Shown: positions 33,349 to 60,122 of the stretch, piece after piece
Layout: every line of letters starts with the position of its first letter
Position numbering within the stretch: the first letter of the stretch is position 1
From: Owenia fusiformis
Taxonomy: Eukaryota; Annelida; Polychaeta; Sabellida; Oweniidae
DNA: 64,000 nt
Direction of reading: 5' to 3'
NCBI GenBank assembly: GCA_903813345.2
Contig: CAIIXF020000011.1
Location: forward strand, 17,653,754 to 17,717,753
Position numbers and translations under genes: made by a program
The notes under the pieces: generated by a model
Databases searched by the model: none
The model's input: the letters and a program-made list of their open reading frames with translations, nothing else
Told to the model about the DNA's origin: nothing

Positions 33349-33480
33349 AGGCAATGACAATGCACACATATGCATAATGTCACCACCTGCCATTTTTACA
33401 GACGCCGACCGCCGAACGCCCAGCATCAACCACCAACCACCGTCCATCAACAAGTGTCTCAAACAATGTGTCACCACATC
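33349..33480 (+). repeat. Dispersed repeat family R1, copy A
   Basis: Core ATGTCACCACCTGCCATTT, then TTACAGACGCCGA, a run of GCCGAACGCC words, then CCACCGTCCA and ATGTGTCACCACAT. The same family occurs at 41212-41332 (reverse), 51444-51615, 55645-55770 and 60008-60122. The outer GTCACCAC motifs are partly inverted, so it may be a MITE. Confidence 0.8.
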
Positions 33481-36622: not shown

Positions 36623-37300
36623 TTGATGCAATTTGTTGCCATCTACAAGTGTCTCATACATCGGCGTAGGCTAGAGATTCCTAAATGGAATTTAGTATTG
36701 TATTTTATATTTGTATATGTATATCGACCTCGGACTCTATAAAAACTGTATAAACTATATGAAAATAGTGTTGCTTCATTGATTAGACATTAGAGTGAGG
36801 TTGCAATTTATTACGGAGTGGGTTGGTTAAACCCCACGATCTGCCGCTATCATATTATTTTCATATATAACACTTACACGGTATAGTACCTCAGGACTTA
36901 TTTCGTGAACTAATAATCTTTTGATTTTGATGATGCCCCGGTGATGATGCTTGATATGGTACGCTGCAATTGCTTTTTACAAATGATATGTTCTTGCATT
37001 GGTAATTAATAAGTCACTCCCTTATATACATATCAGTAATGTGAACAAATTATCAATATTAAAAGTCCAATGTTCAAGCGATTTCTTATCTCTTAACATG
37101 TCGGTTCTAGTGAAGTTCTGGCATTACCAGTCGAAGTATATAAAAGAGAAGTCATACATGACACACGGGAAGCCACGAAAAGCTACTTTAAATAAATGAT
37201 TATGGTTTCAACAAGATGCTATTTCCTTCTATAAATTGGTACATATATGATATATGTTTGAGCAAGGGATATGCTAATGAAGTACCAATGCGACTAGATA
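36623..37300. other. Upstream region of the 966-residue protein gene
   Basis: No other gene was seen. The stretch should include the promoter of the next gene, but no clear TATA or initiator could be assigned. Confidence 0.4.
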
Positions 37301-40201
37301 ATGTTTACTACATTCCGTAGAGCAATCATGAAGCCGCGTAGAGTAGCCGTTGTTATTCTCCTCCTAGGGATAGCGACAATTTTGATATTAAACTTTTTTA
37401 GAATCACGAGAGTTCCAAATGAGTACCAAATAAGAGAAGATAGACAAAAAGAATACCCTATAACCAACAAAAGGCCAGGTGATATTCAATTAGAAAGGAG
37501 TGAGAAGACGACAGATGTTAGAAAGACTACTGCAAGGATGGAAAGAGTTGTAGAGAAAAAAGTGGAAATAGCGCTGGTGTGTTTAACGTGTACCTTAAAC
37601 ATACGTAAAGACATAAAGGATATTCCTTTCTTTCAAAACTTCATGTCATCGTTGTGTAAAACTGCTTCGACGGGATACGCCTACACAATATATCTACCCA
37701 AACAGGAGGGGACAGTAGACAAAGTAATTAAAGATATATTAGACTCAGACTTTAAAAGTTGTTCGAAAAAGTTTGATATACAAATTCGAATTATCCCAGA
37801 TATTGATTTCAAAACCAACCCAGGCAAGGGACTAAATGACATCATGTACATAGCATACTTATCAGGAGCATCGTATATTTACAAAATGACTGATAATGCA
37901 AATTCCTCGTTTAGTACAAATAAATGGACGGAAATGTACACAAGCGAATTAGGAAACCGCAAATACAATAATATAGGGATTATTTTCGACTGCAAACAAG
38001 AGACATTCCGGAAATGTCAATGTTCTTACTTTATTCACAAAACTCATATGGACATATTTGGATCTGTTTTTCCACCTGATATAATGGGATCAGATGTGGA
38101 TCATTGGATTAATTATCTTTATTCAGAAAACTTTACGTCGTACATTCCTGTTACGTCGGTTGCTTCTTGCCCTGAACGTGACATTAAAGGTCAAGATTTA
38201 ATCACGTCTTTAGTAATAAAGTACAAACCACTCTTGGAACACTTTATCAGTAGCTTGCGAACCACTCAAACCAAAAGAAAAGATTGGGTAATTTCAATGA
38301 GTCTTTGGGGAAACTCCCATAGATATACGTATGGAGCGATAAGAAACGCTCAACTTGCAAGGGTTAACTTTCCCGAATGGACACTTAGGATGTATATCGA
38401 AAAACGTGATATTCTTCAAAATAAGCACTCAAAAGTCCCTGGTGATATTTTGACAAAGTTAGTTGAACTCGGAGTAGAACTATATAACGTAGATACGAAT
38501 CGAGTAACCCTAGGTCCAATGATCTGGCGTTTCATGGTCGCAGACGATATGACAGTTGACAGGTTTATAGTCAGAGATTCGGACAGCCGATTAACAGAGC
38601 GGGATGCGGCAACCATTCACGAGTGGCTACAAACTGACAAACCTTTCCATTGTATACGTGATCATCCCAGTCATGGTAACTATCCACTCAATGGCGGACT
38701 GTTTGGAGGTCAGCCTAGAGATATCCTAAAAATATTCAACGAACCATGGAGCAAATTGTCTTCACGATATGGTTCGAATTATCTGGAGGATATGAACTTT
38801 TTAAATAGGGTCGTTTGGCCAAAGGCAAAGAATTACTTTTACTGCCATGACAGTGTTTCGTGTAAGAAATGGCCCAGTTCCTATCCATTCCCAGTTGCCC
38901 GCAATGGCAAAGAGCATGTGGGTGGAGTGTACGATCAGTATAACATTCCCCGACAGGGAGACCTTGATATATTAAACCTGGACGCCTTACCAGCAGAGTG
39001 TACAAAAGTAACATCTACACAAGCTCCAGAAACAACTATCGCTCCAAGTACGCTAAAAACAAGTCGACCAGTTGTTATATGGAGCAATGATTTCCACATC
39101 AGTCCTATACACGATCTTAAAAATTTCTTGCAACCCATGGGTGTTACGTTCATTGATAAGAGCCTGTCGGGACATTGTCATCTGACAAATACATGTGCAA
39201 ATGGTTTGAAAGTTTTGGATAAGGGAAATGGTATTAACTTAGACAGACCCTCCATCTATACAGAGTTTTTTAAAGCATACAAAGATGACCCTGAAATGGA
39301 AAAAGTGGATGCATTCGTGTGTTACCATCCGTCATCCATGTGTGAAATTTTCATGCCGTTCAACAAGTCTATAATTGTTGTACCCTCAACGCGGTATGAG
39401 ATGGGTCGTCATTCTAAGGAACGCTGGGAGGCCTGGAATGTGAACTTAAAACGCATTTCAGATCAGCCGCAAAATACCATTGGTGCCAACAACCAGTATG
39501 ACTTAGAATACGTGCGCTACTTTACAGGAATTACACCCACGCTTTTACCGAGTTTCTGTGGTTATGTGGAAGATAAGTATAACCCTACCCGGCCTGGATT
39601 TCTTTTAAGTCCGATCCACAAAGCTGGATTCCAAAACATTTTTCTTGGAGGATTTAACAAGGCGAAAGAGGAGCTTCACTCTAATGTAAGTCTGACTCCA
39701 CTTCGTGAGCTGTATGGTCATTACAAATACAGCGATCTGGCCAGCCATCAGGGGATTGTACACGTACCTTACCAGGTATCAGTGATGAGCCTATTTGAAC
39801 AATATAGGATGAACATCCCTTTATTTTACCCCTCACTCGATCTTCTGGCTAGTTGGCAACTTACTGACAATGTTCTCAATGAGCGAACGTGGAGTTCCGT
39901 ATTTGGCTCGATTCCCGACAAATCCGTAATACCTGGTGTACTAGACAACGTTCCAGACCCAAATAATGACAAAAATCTCGAAGCTATAAAATATTGGCTG
40001 AAATTCTCAGACTTTTACCAATGGCCTCATATAGTTTACTTTGATTCATACAAAAATCTGATCGAGAAACTAAAATCCACTGATCTGAGGAAAGTGTCTG
40101 ATGGAATGCGTAAATATAATGAAAAGGTAAAAACTGATTTGACTGATAGATGGCAGTCAATCTTACAGAAAACACGGAAATTCTCTAAGCATTATAATTA
40201 A
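37301..40201 (+). CDS. Type II membrane protein with three glycosyltransferase-like regions, 966 aa, intronless
   Basis: One uninterrupted exon. A short basic cytosolic end (KPRR) precedes a membrane anchor at ~14-33 (VAVVILLLGIATILILNFF), the layout of Golgi glycosyltransferases. M10 (37328) is an alternative start giving a shorter tail. Region 1 (~85-315) contains GASYIYKMTDN (D198), similar in style to a nucleotide-sugar-binding turn. Region 2 (~325-565) has WVISMSLWGNSHRYTYGAIR, then RDSDSR with D426 and D428 as a candidate DxD metal site, then NGGLFGG. A Thr/Pro-rich linker (TSTQAPETTIAPSTLKTS) leads to region 3 (~590-950), with IGANNQYDLEYVRYFTGI and SFCGYVEDKYNPTRPGF, possibly a GT-B half. 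Family names and acceptor are unknown. Regions 1 and 2 could be tandem GT-A folds. AATAAA signals lie near 40280 and 40327. Confidence 0.8.
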   Translation: MFTTFRRAIMKPRRVAVVILLLGIATILILNFFRITRVPNEYQIREDRQKEYPITNKRPGDIQLERSEKTTDVRKTTARMERVVEKKVEIALVCLTCTLNIRKDIKDIPFFQNFMSSLCKTASTGYAYTIYLPKQEGTVDKVIKDILDSDFKSCSKKFDIQIRIIPDIDFKTNPGKGLNDIMYIAYLSGASYIYKMTDNANSSFSTNKWTEMYTSELGNRKYNNIGIIFDCKQETFRKCQCSYFIHKTHMDIFGSVFPPDIMGSDVDHWINYLYSENFTSYIPVTSVASCPERDIKGQDLITSLVIKYKPLLEHFISSLRTTQTKRKDWVISMSLWGNSHRYTYGAIRNAQLARVNFPEWTLRMYIEKRDILQNKHSKVPGDILTKLVELGVELYNVDTNRVTLGPMIWRFMVADDMTVDRFIVRDSDSRLTERDAATIHEWLQTDKPFHCIRDHPSHGNYPLNGGLFGGQPRDILKIFNEPWSKLSSRYGSNYLEDMNFLNRVVWPKAKNYFYCHDSVSCKKWPSSYPFPVARNGKEHVGGVYDQYNIPRQGDLDILNLDALPAECTKVTSTQAPETTIAPSTLKTSRPVVIWSNDFHISPIHDLKNFLQPMGVTFIDKSLSGHCHLTNTCANGLKVLDKGNGINLDRPSIYTEFFKAYKDDPEMEKVDAFVCYHPSSMCEIFMPFNKSIIVVPSTRYEMGRHSKERWEAWNVNLKRISDQPQNTIGANNQYDLEYVRYFTGITPTLLPSFCGYVEDKYNPTRPGFLLSPIHKAGFQNIFLGGFNKAKEELHSNVSLTPLRELYGHYKYSDLASHQGIVHVPYQVSVMSLFEQYRMNIPLFYPSLDLLASWQLTDNVLNERTWSSVFGSIPDKSVIPGVLDNVPDPNNDKNLEAIKYWLKFSDFYQWPHIVYFDSYKNLIEKLKSTDLRKVSDGMRKYNEKVKTDLTDRWQSILQKTRKFSKHYN

Positions 40202-54977: not shown

Positions 54978-56107
54978 GTTGATAATGTCAAGCTTGATTA
55001 CCAATCCATAGTACTTTTTACTACTGATACGCCTGATTTGAATCAGTTAGTCATTTCTGTTCCAAATATGTCAGTTTAACAAACATTTACGTCGGTCTCT
55101 GGGCGCACTTCTGGCGTGAGTCCAGTCGTTGTTTTTTATCTGCTTTTTTAATGAATTTTGATTTTGAGATATCCATGGTCCGTGATTGTTAGAATACTCT
55201 TATACTATCAAACAGCAGGCTATATCAACACGTATAGCAACATTGTATATATTTGCCGTCATTTCTTACACAAGTAAATGGATTATCAGATTACAAGTGT
55301 TGGTTTGTTCGGCTTAAATATATTGAGGATAATCGTGTAAATTTCGCGTTAATAAAATCGTCGAGATCAATGATAGCTCAATTCAACTCGCATTGTTGTC
55401 GTTAAGGAAATATGGATTAACGTTGGATTATCTATGTTCTTAACAATATGATGTGCCACTGACGGGCCTGAGCTAATGAAGCGGTAGCTAAAAATGCATT
55501 TGATTCATTAGAACTTAGAACACTTTGATTTATGCCCATTATATGAAGTAAACATAACGTCTAATGACACACTATTCAATGATTTATATTTATTTTCGCA
55601 TACTTTATATCGGTAGCACATAATGAAATTCAATAAACTACAAACAAGGCATTAACTTGCAAAATGTCACCACCTGCCATTTGTTACAGACGCCGAACGC
55701 CGAACACCAGCCGCCGTCCACAAAAATTGGACACCATGGCAATATGCCACCGCATGTTGTGATGACATAAAAACGACAAAATAGTTGAACTTTTTCAATT
55801 TCAGTTCACATCCCCCTGTGTATTAGAGACTTACATTCAATGTCAGAGAAAACGATCAGATTGCTTTTTTTCTTTGATTTACTAATATTTTGAATATAAT
55901 ATATTTTAAACAAAGAATGGGAATAAATTGAAAATACTATCATGTGTATTCTAGGGTATGTGCTCAGTTCGTTTAAACGCTTAGTGATCCCAATTATGTA
56001 AAGATAAGTATACATGTCTCTTAATATAGAGGGACCATGTGTCGAAGAACATATAATTAGTAACGAGAATGTGACCATTGTCTTATGATACGCAGAGATA
56101 ACAGGTA
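54978..56107. other. Intergenic between divergent genes
   Basis: Separates the minus-strand 691-residue gene from the plus-strand His-brace gene and should include both promoters. It contains R1 copy D. No CpG-like or TATA-like core was assigned with confidence. Confidence 0.45.
55645..55770 (+). repeat. Dispersed repeat family R1, copy D
   Basis: CAAGGCATTAACTTGCAAAA, TGTCACCACCTGCCATTTGT, TACAGACGCCGAACGCCGAA, then CCGCCGTCCACAAAAATTGG and GTTGTGATGACAT. This is the copy I would take as closest to a consensus. Confidence 0.85.
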
Positions 56108-56393: not shown

Positions 56394-59300
56394 ATGAGCA
56401 AGAGGCTTGCAATCATAGTGTGCTTTTTACACGTGATTGGAGCTTGTCTGGGGCATCTGTGTATCATATCCCCCAGACAGAGGGGAGCGTTTGATATTAG
56501 TAAGGTAAGAACTTGATAGAGGAGTGCTATGCCTACATACAATAGTACAGACTGTGGTTCCTGATTCACCAAATTTAAAATGAATGGGTCATTCTTGGCT
56601 TGGATTTTGAAAAACTTCACGATTGCGTTCTTTTCATTTGAAGTTTTGATCAAGCGAAAAGCCATTATTAAAACACGAATAATTCAAATTCTTATCATAC
56701 CTGATATATCAATATATAGGTACTAAATTTTTGAAGTGATAAAAACAATAGTTGGTGTCTTCTATTTTTAATGAAAGGTAATTCATTTTCAGTCTAGCAA
56801 TGGTGTTCAAAAGTTAAATGTTGTGGAAAGTTATTCATTGATTCAGTGTTTTTTCTGCAGGGTGGAAGCAGTACGTGTTTCCGTCACGGGGCGCCATGTG
56901 GGGGTCAGGCTCCAACGAAACCAAGGGTCACATATTTTGGCGGGAAAACGGCATTTATAAAATGGCAGCAGAACTTCAACCACTATACAGTGGGATTTCC
57001 AGGTACAGAATTTGCTTTACATGCTCCTTCGAAATGTTTTTACTAAGTAAAATTGGTTAAAGACGAGCATGAACCTCTATAATCCTACCAATTGAGTAAA
57101 TTATCAACCAAGCGACGTAGGCCAAAGTCCAGTTAAGTTTTGAAATTAAAGCAAAATCCGCTGAAACATTTTATAGGTTTTATGGACGTGGCATTGGGGA
57201 TCGACGAGAAAGATCCAAACAACTTCACGGTTCTTGCTGTCGTACAAGATGACAACTTTCATGCACAAGATCATCAACAAAATTACACAGCAGCCGTAGT
57301 AAGAACACAGATTGATATTTAAGGATTTAATCCCTGGACTCATGCATTGTGGGCTGATCATCATTTCACAATTAAAGGTGTTGTTTCAAACTTTGCACGA
57401 ATGCGTAGCCATAGTACAGTAATGATAACGCGAGTTTATATCTCTAGATCTTTTATTCATAACATCTATTTGTGCAAAGAATTGTAAAATTGTATGTGTC
57501 TCTGCTTTGTCATAAATATTGTACTTTGTTATTTTAGGTGCTCCCAAACATCGATTGCAGTCATTGTGTATTGCGCATGCGCTATCAATCTCACAAACCT
57601 GGGGAAACTATCTTCTATCAGTGCGCTGACATCTCAATCAAGAAAACACCAAATAGTGAACATGCACATTCGAAAGAGAATACAATTCCTGATGATGTAA
57701 TTGCTCCTCCCATCAAAAAAGCGCAACAGTTGATTGATAATCATCCAGCTATGATAACACCGACGTTTTATGGGTATGCATTTAATAAATTCGATCCTGA
57801 TGTATGTCACTATGTGCAATTAAACTGGCCAAATCTCTATGTTAAACCAATCATATCAATCCCTTTTGGGATATCAAGTCAGCTGAACATTCAGCCACCG
57901 AAGATGGAGTTTAATTCAGAGTCTCAAACGTGGCACAATAGAAGACTTAAGAGAACGCCAGAAACAATGCTATCCAAAATGGTTGACAATTATATAAAGA
58001 ACAATGCGCCCGAACCCCATGCTTACTTGGTAGACCAGGTCATGGTTACCGATACAAAATGGGGCCCAGGCGGACGGCTGAACGTCACCGTACTCATAAG
58101 ACATGATGGCAATCTGGATGACCCGACTGTTACAATGTACGTGGTTGGGGCCTGGAATGGATCCCTCGTGAGGGAGGGTCCTATTATTGGACGACCAGAC
58201 AATGTTCCTATAAGTGCGCTACAATTGCAGTATCCCGGAGTCTACCTTCAGTTGATAATAATCGATGCTCCCAACAAACCAGGCAAGTAATGATTTCTGT
58301 AGTGAAGGGAAATAGTGTTAATCACTTTAGCCCCCTCCACCTCCAAAAATTTGCCAACCTTGACTCCCAGGTTTGATAGCTAGAGTATGTTGCATATTGT
58401 ACTATGTGTGACAAGTACAAAAGGTTGATAACAAAAGTGATGATTTCTCTAACACACGTGAGCGCAAAGAAGTGACAACCAATGCAATGATTCCACATCT
58501 GACACCAATTTACACAGATTATAACCCATAGTGCCCTACGGAAAAACTTGAAAACATATTCACTTCAAAGACCTGTACATGTCGTCACATATGTTTAATC
58601 AACAAATATTTAATGTACATTGTTCTGTCTTGTTCTATGTATTTTATTTTTGTGGATGATTTTCAGGTTTTTACATATTCAAAGTTGGACATTTCTTCCT
58701 GGACTCTGAATATTTGGGCGACCTTGCAACATCAGAGTCCGAGGACACGTACGTTAACTTCCAATGGAGTACCTTTGATCCCAACAAGCAATTGTTCTAC
58801 GCCTTGATGGGAAACGAGAACTCGCCAGATGAGCTTGATGCTAGAATTTACACATTTGATCTCAATCATAAGTAAGCAATATATGCTGCTGCTCGATTGC
58901 AAGCTTTGGTTTTAGATTGTTGAAACTACGTACATGTAGTAGATATCCAAAGCCCCGGGTACAAAGCAAATCATAAATTCATGGAAACACGATGCGTAAT
59001 CAGTCTTTGTCCTCTCAGTGTAATTTTGTTTCATTTATGATATTGATAGAATAGTCATGCCCTTAGTCAAGGGGTTCAGTTTTCAAGTGATTTGGGGTCA
59101 AGGTTGTCAAATGTGACCCCCCCTCGAATCAGCGATAAGACTGATGCCTTCCTCTTATTTGCATTCTCCTAGTAAGGTGACATACAAGCAGTTGGATGTC
59201 TCTACATACACAATCCAAGCTGCCCAGCTCTACCAGGAGACCGGCCAATTGCTAGCTCTCTCCCCTGGACTCTTCAAGCAGAACATGAATCCAGCCTGGG

Positions 59301-59931
59301 CGCTTGTAGAAGTGGACCCACTAACTGGCAAGATCACTAAACTATTTGATGTAACACCAGCGGGTATGTGAGGTTATCGACGAATAATTTTCCTCGAAAT
59401 AAACCCCCACTGGCTCGAAAAATTATTGTTCCCTATTACCACCATCATCAAAAATCAATATTCTTTATTGAGGTCCGTGGGCGTTTTCTTGGTAGCTTTC
59501 AAATAGACGCCCGTGTGAAATAAACGACTGCGTGTGTAAGTAAGAAACTCCGGTAATAATATCGTGCCTAATTTTAATTAATAAGATTTATGATTTATTA
59601 TTTTCGTATAACTTTATTAAGAGTCTGGCCTTAAAATCATTTTAATAAACCAACATTATCTTACTTTATGTTCTTAGATTCTCAAATAACGTTTTTAAAA
59701 CACAAGTGCTGGAACAATGTTGTTATGAAATATGTTTCAGGTATATTTTCCAAATACTATGGTGGTACAATAATCAATGGAGTAAACGATGGGATATTCT
59801 ATTATAAGCTGAGTGTGGCAGACACCCATGCATCAGTTATTGTATCAGTAGACATTAAAACAGGGGATGTGGCTTACTCAAACATGGCAAATCTGGAACA
59901 CATTCACAATTTAGCCATTATAGAGCCATAA
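56394..59931 (+). CDS. Secreted His-brace (LPMO/BIM1-like) protein with propeller-like C-terminus, 568 aa, seven exons
   Basis: Exons 56394-56504, 56861-57002, 57177-57298, 57538-58282, 58667-58871, 59173-59363 and 59741-59931; all phases agree. Six acceptors end in AG; intron 4 starts AG|GCAAGT (GC-AG type), the others GT. The signal peptide (~1-20, to GACLG) would leave His21 as mature residue 1, followed by LCIISPRQRGAFDI. C43 and C50 (CFRHGAPCGG), H78 (FNHYTVGFPG), D88, and C132, C135 and C154 (YQCADI) follow. An N-terminal His plus an internal His is the copper His-brace of lytic polysaccharide monooxygenases and BIM1-like copper proteins; the YQCADI end also recalls LPMO folds. A middle region (~165-373) contains R261-L-K-R264, a furin-type site. 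Exons 5-7 each give one ~60-residue repeat (for example PAWALVEVDPLTGKITKLFD), probably beta-propeller blades. Oxidase activity is inference; a copper-binding, non-catalytic role is possible. Confidence 0.85.
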
Positions 59932-60007: not shown

Positions 60008-60122
60008 AAGGCATTGACATGCAGCACGTCACTACCTGCCATTTGTTACAGACGCCGAACACCAACTACAAAAACACAGGCCACAAAAAAAGTTTGAGAC
60101 AATTATAATATGTCACCACCAA
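60008..60122 (+). repeat. Dispersed repeat family R1, copy E, in the 3' flank of the His-brace gene
   Basis: CAAGGCATTGACATGCAGCA, CGTCACTACCTGCCATTTGT and TACAGACGCCGAACACCAAC, ending ATATGTCACCACCAATGACA. It starts 77 bp after the stop codon, so it is probably in the transcript. Confidence 0.85.

Follow-up and report, generated by a model that had tools for sequence, protein, structure and literature searches.

Two groups of copper proteins come closest to the one described here. The first is AA15, the LPMO family named for animals (PMC10952591), whose member TdAA15A has His91 and Tyr184 among its reported active-site residues; the same account gives ten cysteines as conserved in the AA15 proteins of T. 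domestica and in their best matches (PMC5823890). The second is X325/BIM1, which is listed as fungal. In BIM1 and LaX325, following the description in PMC7529816, the copper is held by a histidine brace plus an aspartate on a glycine-rich loop, the place of this aspartate being free in LPMOs, and BIM1 itself is reported there to have no redox activity and to lose its copper to H2O2. Members of X325 are, moreover, all said to carry a GPI anchor (PMC8615602).

The locus analysed here lies in a stretch of 64,000 nucleotides of Owenia fusiformis DNA (hereafter the window, C11:17653754-17717753 of an assembly of 498 Mb in 525 contigs) and holds a seven-exon gene that encodes 568 amino acids. On balance, we think it probable, as judged from its sequence, that the product is a secreted copper His-brace protein of the LPMO superfamily, standing between AA15 and X325/BIM1, with a C-terminal module that is possibly cleavable. 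The features to which we refer below, in window positions unless a contig is named, are the following.

56394 to 59931, plus strand: whole gene from start codon to stop codon, an open frame of 568 amino acids with an exon plan matched by the second copy
56394-56504, 56861-57002, 57177-57298, 57538-58282, 58667-58871, 59173-59363 and 59741-59931, plus strand: the seven exons
58283 to 58284, plus strand: GC donor of intron 4 (AG/GCAAGT), where the second copy has GT
56394 to 56453, plus strand: expected signal peptide, residues 1-20, with cleavage before His21, judged by eye
56454 to 56456, plus strand: His21, expected mature N-terminus (His1 of the brace), invariant in the alignment of the two copies
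56454 to 57642 (exons 1-4, introns included), plus strand: candidate copper-brace domain, residues 21-160, from PF20238 and PF03067 scores
56981 to 56983, plus strand: His78, expected second brace histidine (His91 of TdAA15A), from the Y-x15-H spacing and the PF03067 offset, the profile alignment disagreeing by 5 residues
57613 to 57615, plus strand: Phe151, expected axial copper-site residue (Tyr184 of TdAA15A), from alignments
57943 to 57954, plus strand: R261-L-K-R264, furin-type proprotein-convertase motif in the linker, the sole RX[KR]R in each copy and at the same aligned place
57955 to 59931 (exons 4-7, introns included), plus strand: C-terminal module, residues 265-568, with no cysteine and no family above cut-off, conserved in the second copy
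C11:17213361-17209382 (L024:1883-5862), minus strand: intact second copy, opposite in orientation to the window gene and about 0.5 Mb away, from the genome search

The introns of the window gene follow the GT-AG rule except for intron 4, in which a GC donor after position 58282 is needed to close the frame. The gene model is supported at this very point, since the second copy has a GT donor where intron 4 of the window gene has GC. Residues 21-165 and 374-568, which an earlier note on this DNA had singled out, fall into place in a 568-residue model running exactly from 56394 to 59931.

The second copy encodes 576 residues in seven exons on the same plan, and the two proteins are 62% identical (348 of 561 aligned residues). 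This identity is unevenly spread: it reaches 108 of 140 residues over residues 21-160 and 137 of 195, summed over segments, over residues 374-568, and it falls to 16 of 50 in the poorly conserved linker (residues 241-290). Between the copies dN is 0.30, and dS was returned as not computable, which we read as saturation of the synonymous sites; with dS read in this way, purifying selection seems to have acted on both genes for a long time. One stretch of 16 residues, NFHAQDHQQNYTAAVV (residues 111-126, window 57254-57540), is identical in the two copies and holds H113 and H117, two histidines that are not seen in the AA15 sequences of the same genome. With the whole window protein as query and E up to 1, a genome search yielded 15 matches, namely seven in its own gene, seven in the second copy and a weak one on C163 (E 0.2) that we take as chance; the same search with the second copy gave 14 matches, seven per gene, and thus no third gene was found. 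Scans of viral and prokaryotic contig collections with two short peptide patterns each confirmed no relative of either half of the protein, and such scans are silent on other animals, because the collections consist of viruses and prokaryotes.

As regards the rest of the window, a similar short repeat, CCATTTGTTACAGACGCCGAAC, flanks the gene on both sides (55640-55740 and 60010-60070) and is probably a dispersed element, as related stretches are seen by eye near 33378 and 51473. A single open frame at 10025-11104 matches the rhodopsin-type receptors (PF00001, 62.7 bits). Another, of 967 residues at 37298-40198, looks hydrophobic by eye in a stretch at its N-terminus and matches nothing in Pfam at E 0.01; it is perhaps a membrane-anchored Golgi-type protein.

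The earlier note had proposed that removal of a signal peptide exposes His21. Residues 7-25 of the window protein are indeed hydrophobic (mean hydropathy 2.48), the segment ends in ACLG directly before H21, and the second copy, whose signal ends in GFA, keeps a histidine at the same +1 position, the cleavage point being placed by eye in each case. In both copies, HLCIISPRQRG follows directly after the signal. Only 3 of the 20 signal residues are identical between the copies, as against the 108 of 140 in residues 21-160, and for this reason the N-terminal histidine of the mature protein seems to be the feature that has been retained.

The other sequence elements that the earlier note had pointed out, H78, the CxxC at residues 132-135 and YQCADI, are likewise present, and the second copy has the same histidine, the CxxC and LQCSDI in their place; neither copy has lost H21, H78 or F151. 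For the comparison with AA15 we used eight sequences, namely those of seven of the nine PF03067 loci of the same genome plus 5MSZ, the solved structure of TdAA15A. All eight show Y-x15-H leading to the brace histidine, and the same spacing leads to H78 in both copies. A tighter form, Y-x2-G-x12-H, is found in 7/8 AA15 sequences and in both copies, and arose in 359 and 374 of 20000 shuffles; the tightest, Y-x2-G-x-T-x10-H, is found in 3/8 and in both copies, and arose in 17 and 20 of 20000. It should be noted that these patterns were picked after the sequences had been seen, and that the shuffle control covers the two tighter forms and not the loose Y-x15-H. When a genomic AA15 is aligned with 5MSZ, the column of His91 is that of H78, by the Y-x15-H spacing, and the column of Tyr184 is that of F151; in particular, F151 stands opposite F183 of the AA15 in the profile alignment, and F183 stands opposite Tyr184 of 5MSZ.

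A second line of evidence comes from the column numbering of PF03067. AA15 fragments cut at the brace histidine put that residue at column 102, from both sides, and the four matches of the window protein and the second copy that span H78 share one start offset, which places H78 on the same column if the alignment is ungapped. A gap before H78 is conceivable, as further downstream the matches are displaced by two to four columns.

Profile comparison, for its part, relates the domain to AA15 mainly through its end. The domain profile matches that of three AA15s of the same genome with a probability of 84.8%, a score reached by 0 of 150 column shuffles, and the control comparison of the C-terminal module with AA15 gives 0.1%. 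It is the last 36 of the 141 columns, those with CxxC and CADI, that carry the match (columns 1-105 alone give 0.09%), and this alignment sets the AA15 histidine opposite F83, five residues past H78. When a profile of the two copies was run with HMMER against five AA15s, L031 (6.3 bits) aligned its NH with N77-H78, L029 aligned over just the seven residues preceding NH, and the other three aligned downstream only, as did the reverse search with an AA15 profile.

Taken feature by feature, the window protein is like AA15 LPMOs in its predicted mature N-terminal histidine, in the Y-x15-H spacing to the second brace histidine, in C-x-x-C-V-L and F-[YLF]-x-C-[AS]-D-[IV] (both motifs occur in 4/8 AA15s, the other four ending before that region) and in its aromatic axial residue. 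It is unlike them in that the domain has about 140 amino acids as against about 190 (192 in an AA15 domain of the same genome), that the CGxCGD...EAGG region is absent, that residues 21-160 hold six cysteines as against ten, that the protein stays below the PF03067 (LPMO_10) cut-off and that its C-terminal module belongs to no Pfam family above cut-off. With the CGxCGD region and the ten AA15 cysteines missing, no binding face of LPMO type can be recognized. Bacterial AA10 LPMOs compare similarly: the superfamily profile PF03067 comes near its cut-off and does not reach it, and no relative was found in the prokaryotic contigs (two scans, two short peptide patterns in each).

The AA15 genes of this genome have some features of their own. 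Nine PF03067 matches (L025-L033), eight of them above cut-off, have AA15-type motifs in their reading frames; L030 and L032 carry Thr-rich stretches after the AA15 domain, and L026, L030, L031 and L032 a short Cys-rich tail. At L028:2029-3024, an AA15 exon end resembling VVQWLYHAGNH is repeated several times downstream, as if drawn into a tandem repeat.

The one family profile to be passed is of the X325/BIM1 group. The window domain passes PF20238 (BIM1-like) narrowly, at 27.1-31.6 bits for a cut-off of 27, with 27.8 bits and E 3.9e-6 over residues 20-166 of the window protein and 31.6 bits and E 2.7e-7 for a fragment of 158 amino acids. PF03067 gives 17.8-21.2 bits for the same domain and 21.9 bits for a longer fragment of the second copy, below its cut-off of 23. 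The second copy has no PF20238 match even at E 10, and its domain of 139 amino acids has no Pfam match at all. With respect to the BIM1-like and LPMO profiles to which the earlier note had pointed, then, PF20238 is passed by the window domain only and PF03067 remains at 17.8-21.9 bits, below 23. Used as a six-frame query, PF20238 found no match in this genome or in 14 control genomes, which does not amount to absence, because the domain is split over four exons. Matches of the window protein to PF14412 (AHH) lie below cut-off and were set aside. A PDB sequence search with the whole protein returned nothing, one with the domain profile returned weak matches (best E 0.75), and AlphaFold2, run on residues 21-166 without relatives, produced a model with a mean pLDDT of 37.6, too low for use.

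Could the protein, in that case, be a copper handler of the X325/BIM1 type, which binds copper extracellularly through its His brace and delivers it, perhaps to a Ctr1-type importer or to an extracellular copper enzyme, without oxidizing any substrate? We regard this as possible, if rather doubtful. PF20238 is the only Pfam family above cut-off in the window protein and spans nearly the whole domain, as in the fungal X325/BIM1 proteins (Cbi1); the domain is shorter than the 192-residue AA15 domain and has no AA15 CGxCGD region; and BIM1, whose profile is passed, is the protein reported as not redox-active (PMC7529816), a point that counts against an oxygenase. That said, unlike its fungal counterparts, the window gene comes from an animal genome, its protein has a C-terminal module of 304 residues, and the second copy misses PF20238 altogether. 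Between CVLRMRYQ and FYQCADI the window protein has the loop SHKPGETI (residues 143-150) and the second copy SHKPGEST, and neither holds an aspartate; this loop, which precedes the last strand, is presumed to be the equivalent of the glycine-rich aspartate loop of BIM1/X325. What is more, a hydrophobic C-terminus of the kind expected for the GPI anchor given for X325 (PMC8615602) was not found by hydropathy, the last 45 residues peaking at 1.04 and the protein ending in HNLAIIEP. Without the loop aspartate and the hydrophobic tail, we lean, at modest odds, towards an open, LPMO-like copper site. A paper on a BIM1-like domain in metazoans was not found in the literature searched, which omits most subscription papers.

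The second half of the protein raises a separate question. A tail of unknown function is, per se, not unusual, such regions being common in AA15 LPMOs (51% of AA15 sequences; PMC8615602). No Pfam family reaches its cut-off in the module, the PepSY and TamB matches of its pieces being weak and below theirs, and a PDB search with its profile gave weak matches only (best E 0.45). The earlier note had seen here a propeller-like C-terminus with one similar repeat in each of exons 5-7, and one may still imagine exons 5-7, or 4-7, as a beta-propeller with one blade per exon that binds glycans, an arrangement compatible with any reading of the brace; we hold it unlikely. Exons 5, 6 and 7 encode 68, 64 and 63 residues, and in each of them a hydrophobic-D hairpin can be made out by eye. 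A lag scan for repeats peaks at 53 in the window protein but at 66 in the second copy. The repeats themselves did not rise above shuffles or profile controls. Namely, local alignments among exons 5-7 of the window gene gave p = 0.40, 0.63 and 0.10 (1000 shuffles per pair), and units registered by hand gave p = 0.105-0.2925, with z-scores that are all positive and at most 1.22. In the lag scan, 110 and 111 of 300 shuffles did as well, and the profile comparison among the three exons, from which overlapping segment pairs were left out since they match by construction, had a probability of at most 4.44%. The claim of one repeat per exon thus found no support, and neither did the propeller from shuffles, profiles, Pfam or the PDB sequence search. 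A propeller is nonetheless conceivable, because blades can be weakly alike. No LPMO-propeller protein appeared by title among the papers listed, in a literature that omits most subscription papers. We also observed that residues 196-276 resemble residues 276-374 (score 42, p 0.004, one of 15 comparisons within the window protein).

The two halves are joined by the linker with its R-L-K-R, which is identical in both copies. Furin-type proprotein convertases usually cut at RX[KR]R, and among 5000 shuffled proteins 123 and 284 contained some motif of this form. The presence of this motif makes cleavage at the linker possible, and the window protein may be cut into a copper part (residues 21-264) and a second part (residues 265-568). 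All seven mature cysteines are conserved in both copies and lie in the copper part, so that at least one of them would be free or bonded to another chain.

Finally, that the domain is a former brace, by now a structural or signalling module without copper, with the conserved work done by the C-terminal module, we consider improbable: the first 105 domain residues do not align to AA15 by profile, and H113, H117 and NFHAQDHQQNYTAAVV, identical in both copies and unlike the AA15s of the same genome, could have another role, but His21, H78 and F151 have been kept in both copies despite apparently saturated synonymous sites, and the signal has changed around a fixed histidine at +1.

We return, then, to the reading as a secreted His-brace copper protein. 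This part of the earlier proposal, an animal copper protein related to LPMOs and BIM1-like proteins, stands on the family profiles, on the AA15 motif spacing, including that of TdAA15A, and on the second copy, while the propeller attached to it does not. The mechanism that we infer, in its copper, its fold, its cleavage and its catalysis alike, would run as follows. Signal peptidase would expose His21, whose amino group and ring, together with His78, would hold one copper ion, with Phe151 axial to the copper as in AA15 LPMOs; the alignments suggest as much. The domain would fold as a short beta-sandwich and take, within the LPMO superfamily, a place between AA15 LPMOs and fungal X325/BIM1. In view of the LPMO-type axial residue and the missing aspartate in the loop before the last strand, the copper is taken as open to O2 or H2O2, and the protein as redox-active on an extracellular substrate. 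This substrate would most likely be a glycan, either from the matrix of the animal itself or from what it eats, activity on polysaccharides and catalysis as such being predictions from sequence. The module of residues 265-568 would bind or position the substrate or a partner, and a furin-type protease might cut between R264 and T265, whereby the two parts would be separated or activated.

Since the defining features of both AA15 and X325 were tested and some are missing, we leave the family label open. More tentatively, the protein could belong to a distinct animal branch of His-brace copper proteins, with an X325-sized scaffold, an LPMO-type open site and a furin-split precursor that yields a copper enzyme and a cysteine-free partner module; if true, the branch would count as a new family, either of copper oxygenases or of copper carriers, in animals. 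As far as we have seen, a brace protein of mixed AA15 and X325 character is unusual for an animal, and it may widen the known range of LPMO-related copper proteins in animals. The C-terminal module, like the conserved cleavage motif, could point to a role beyond simple digestion. An animal domain with features of AA15 and X325 could, moreover, show the kinship of copper carriers and copper oxygenases, and it is a small system in which to ask what residues make the difference between them.
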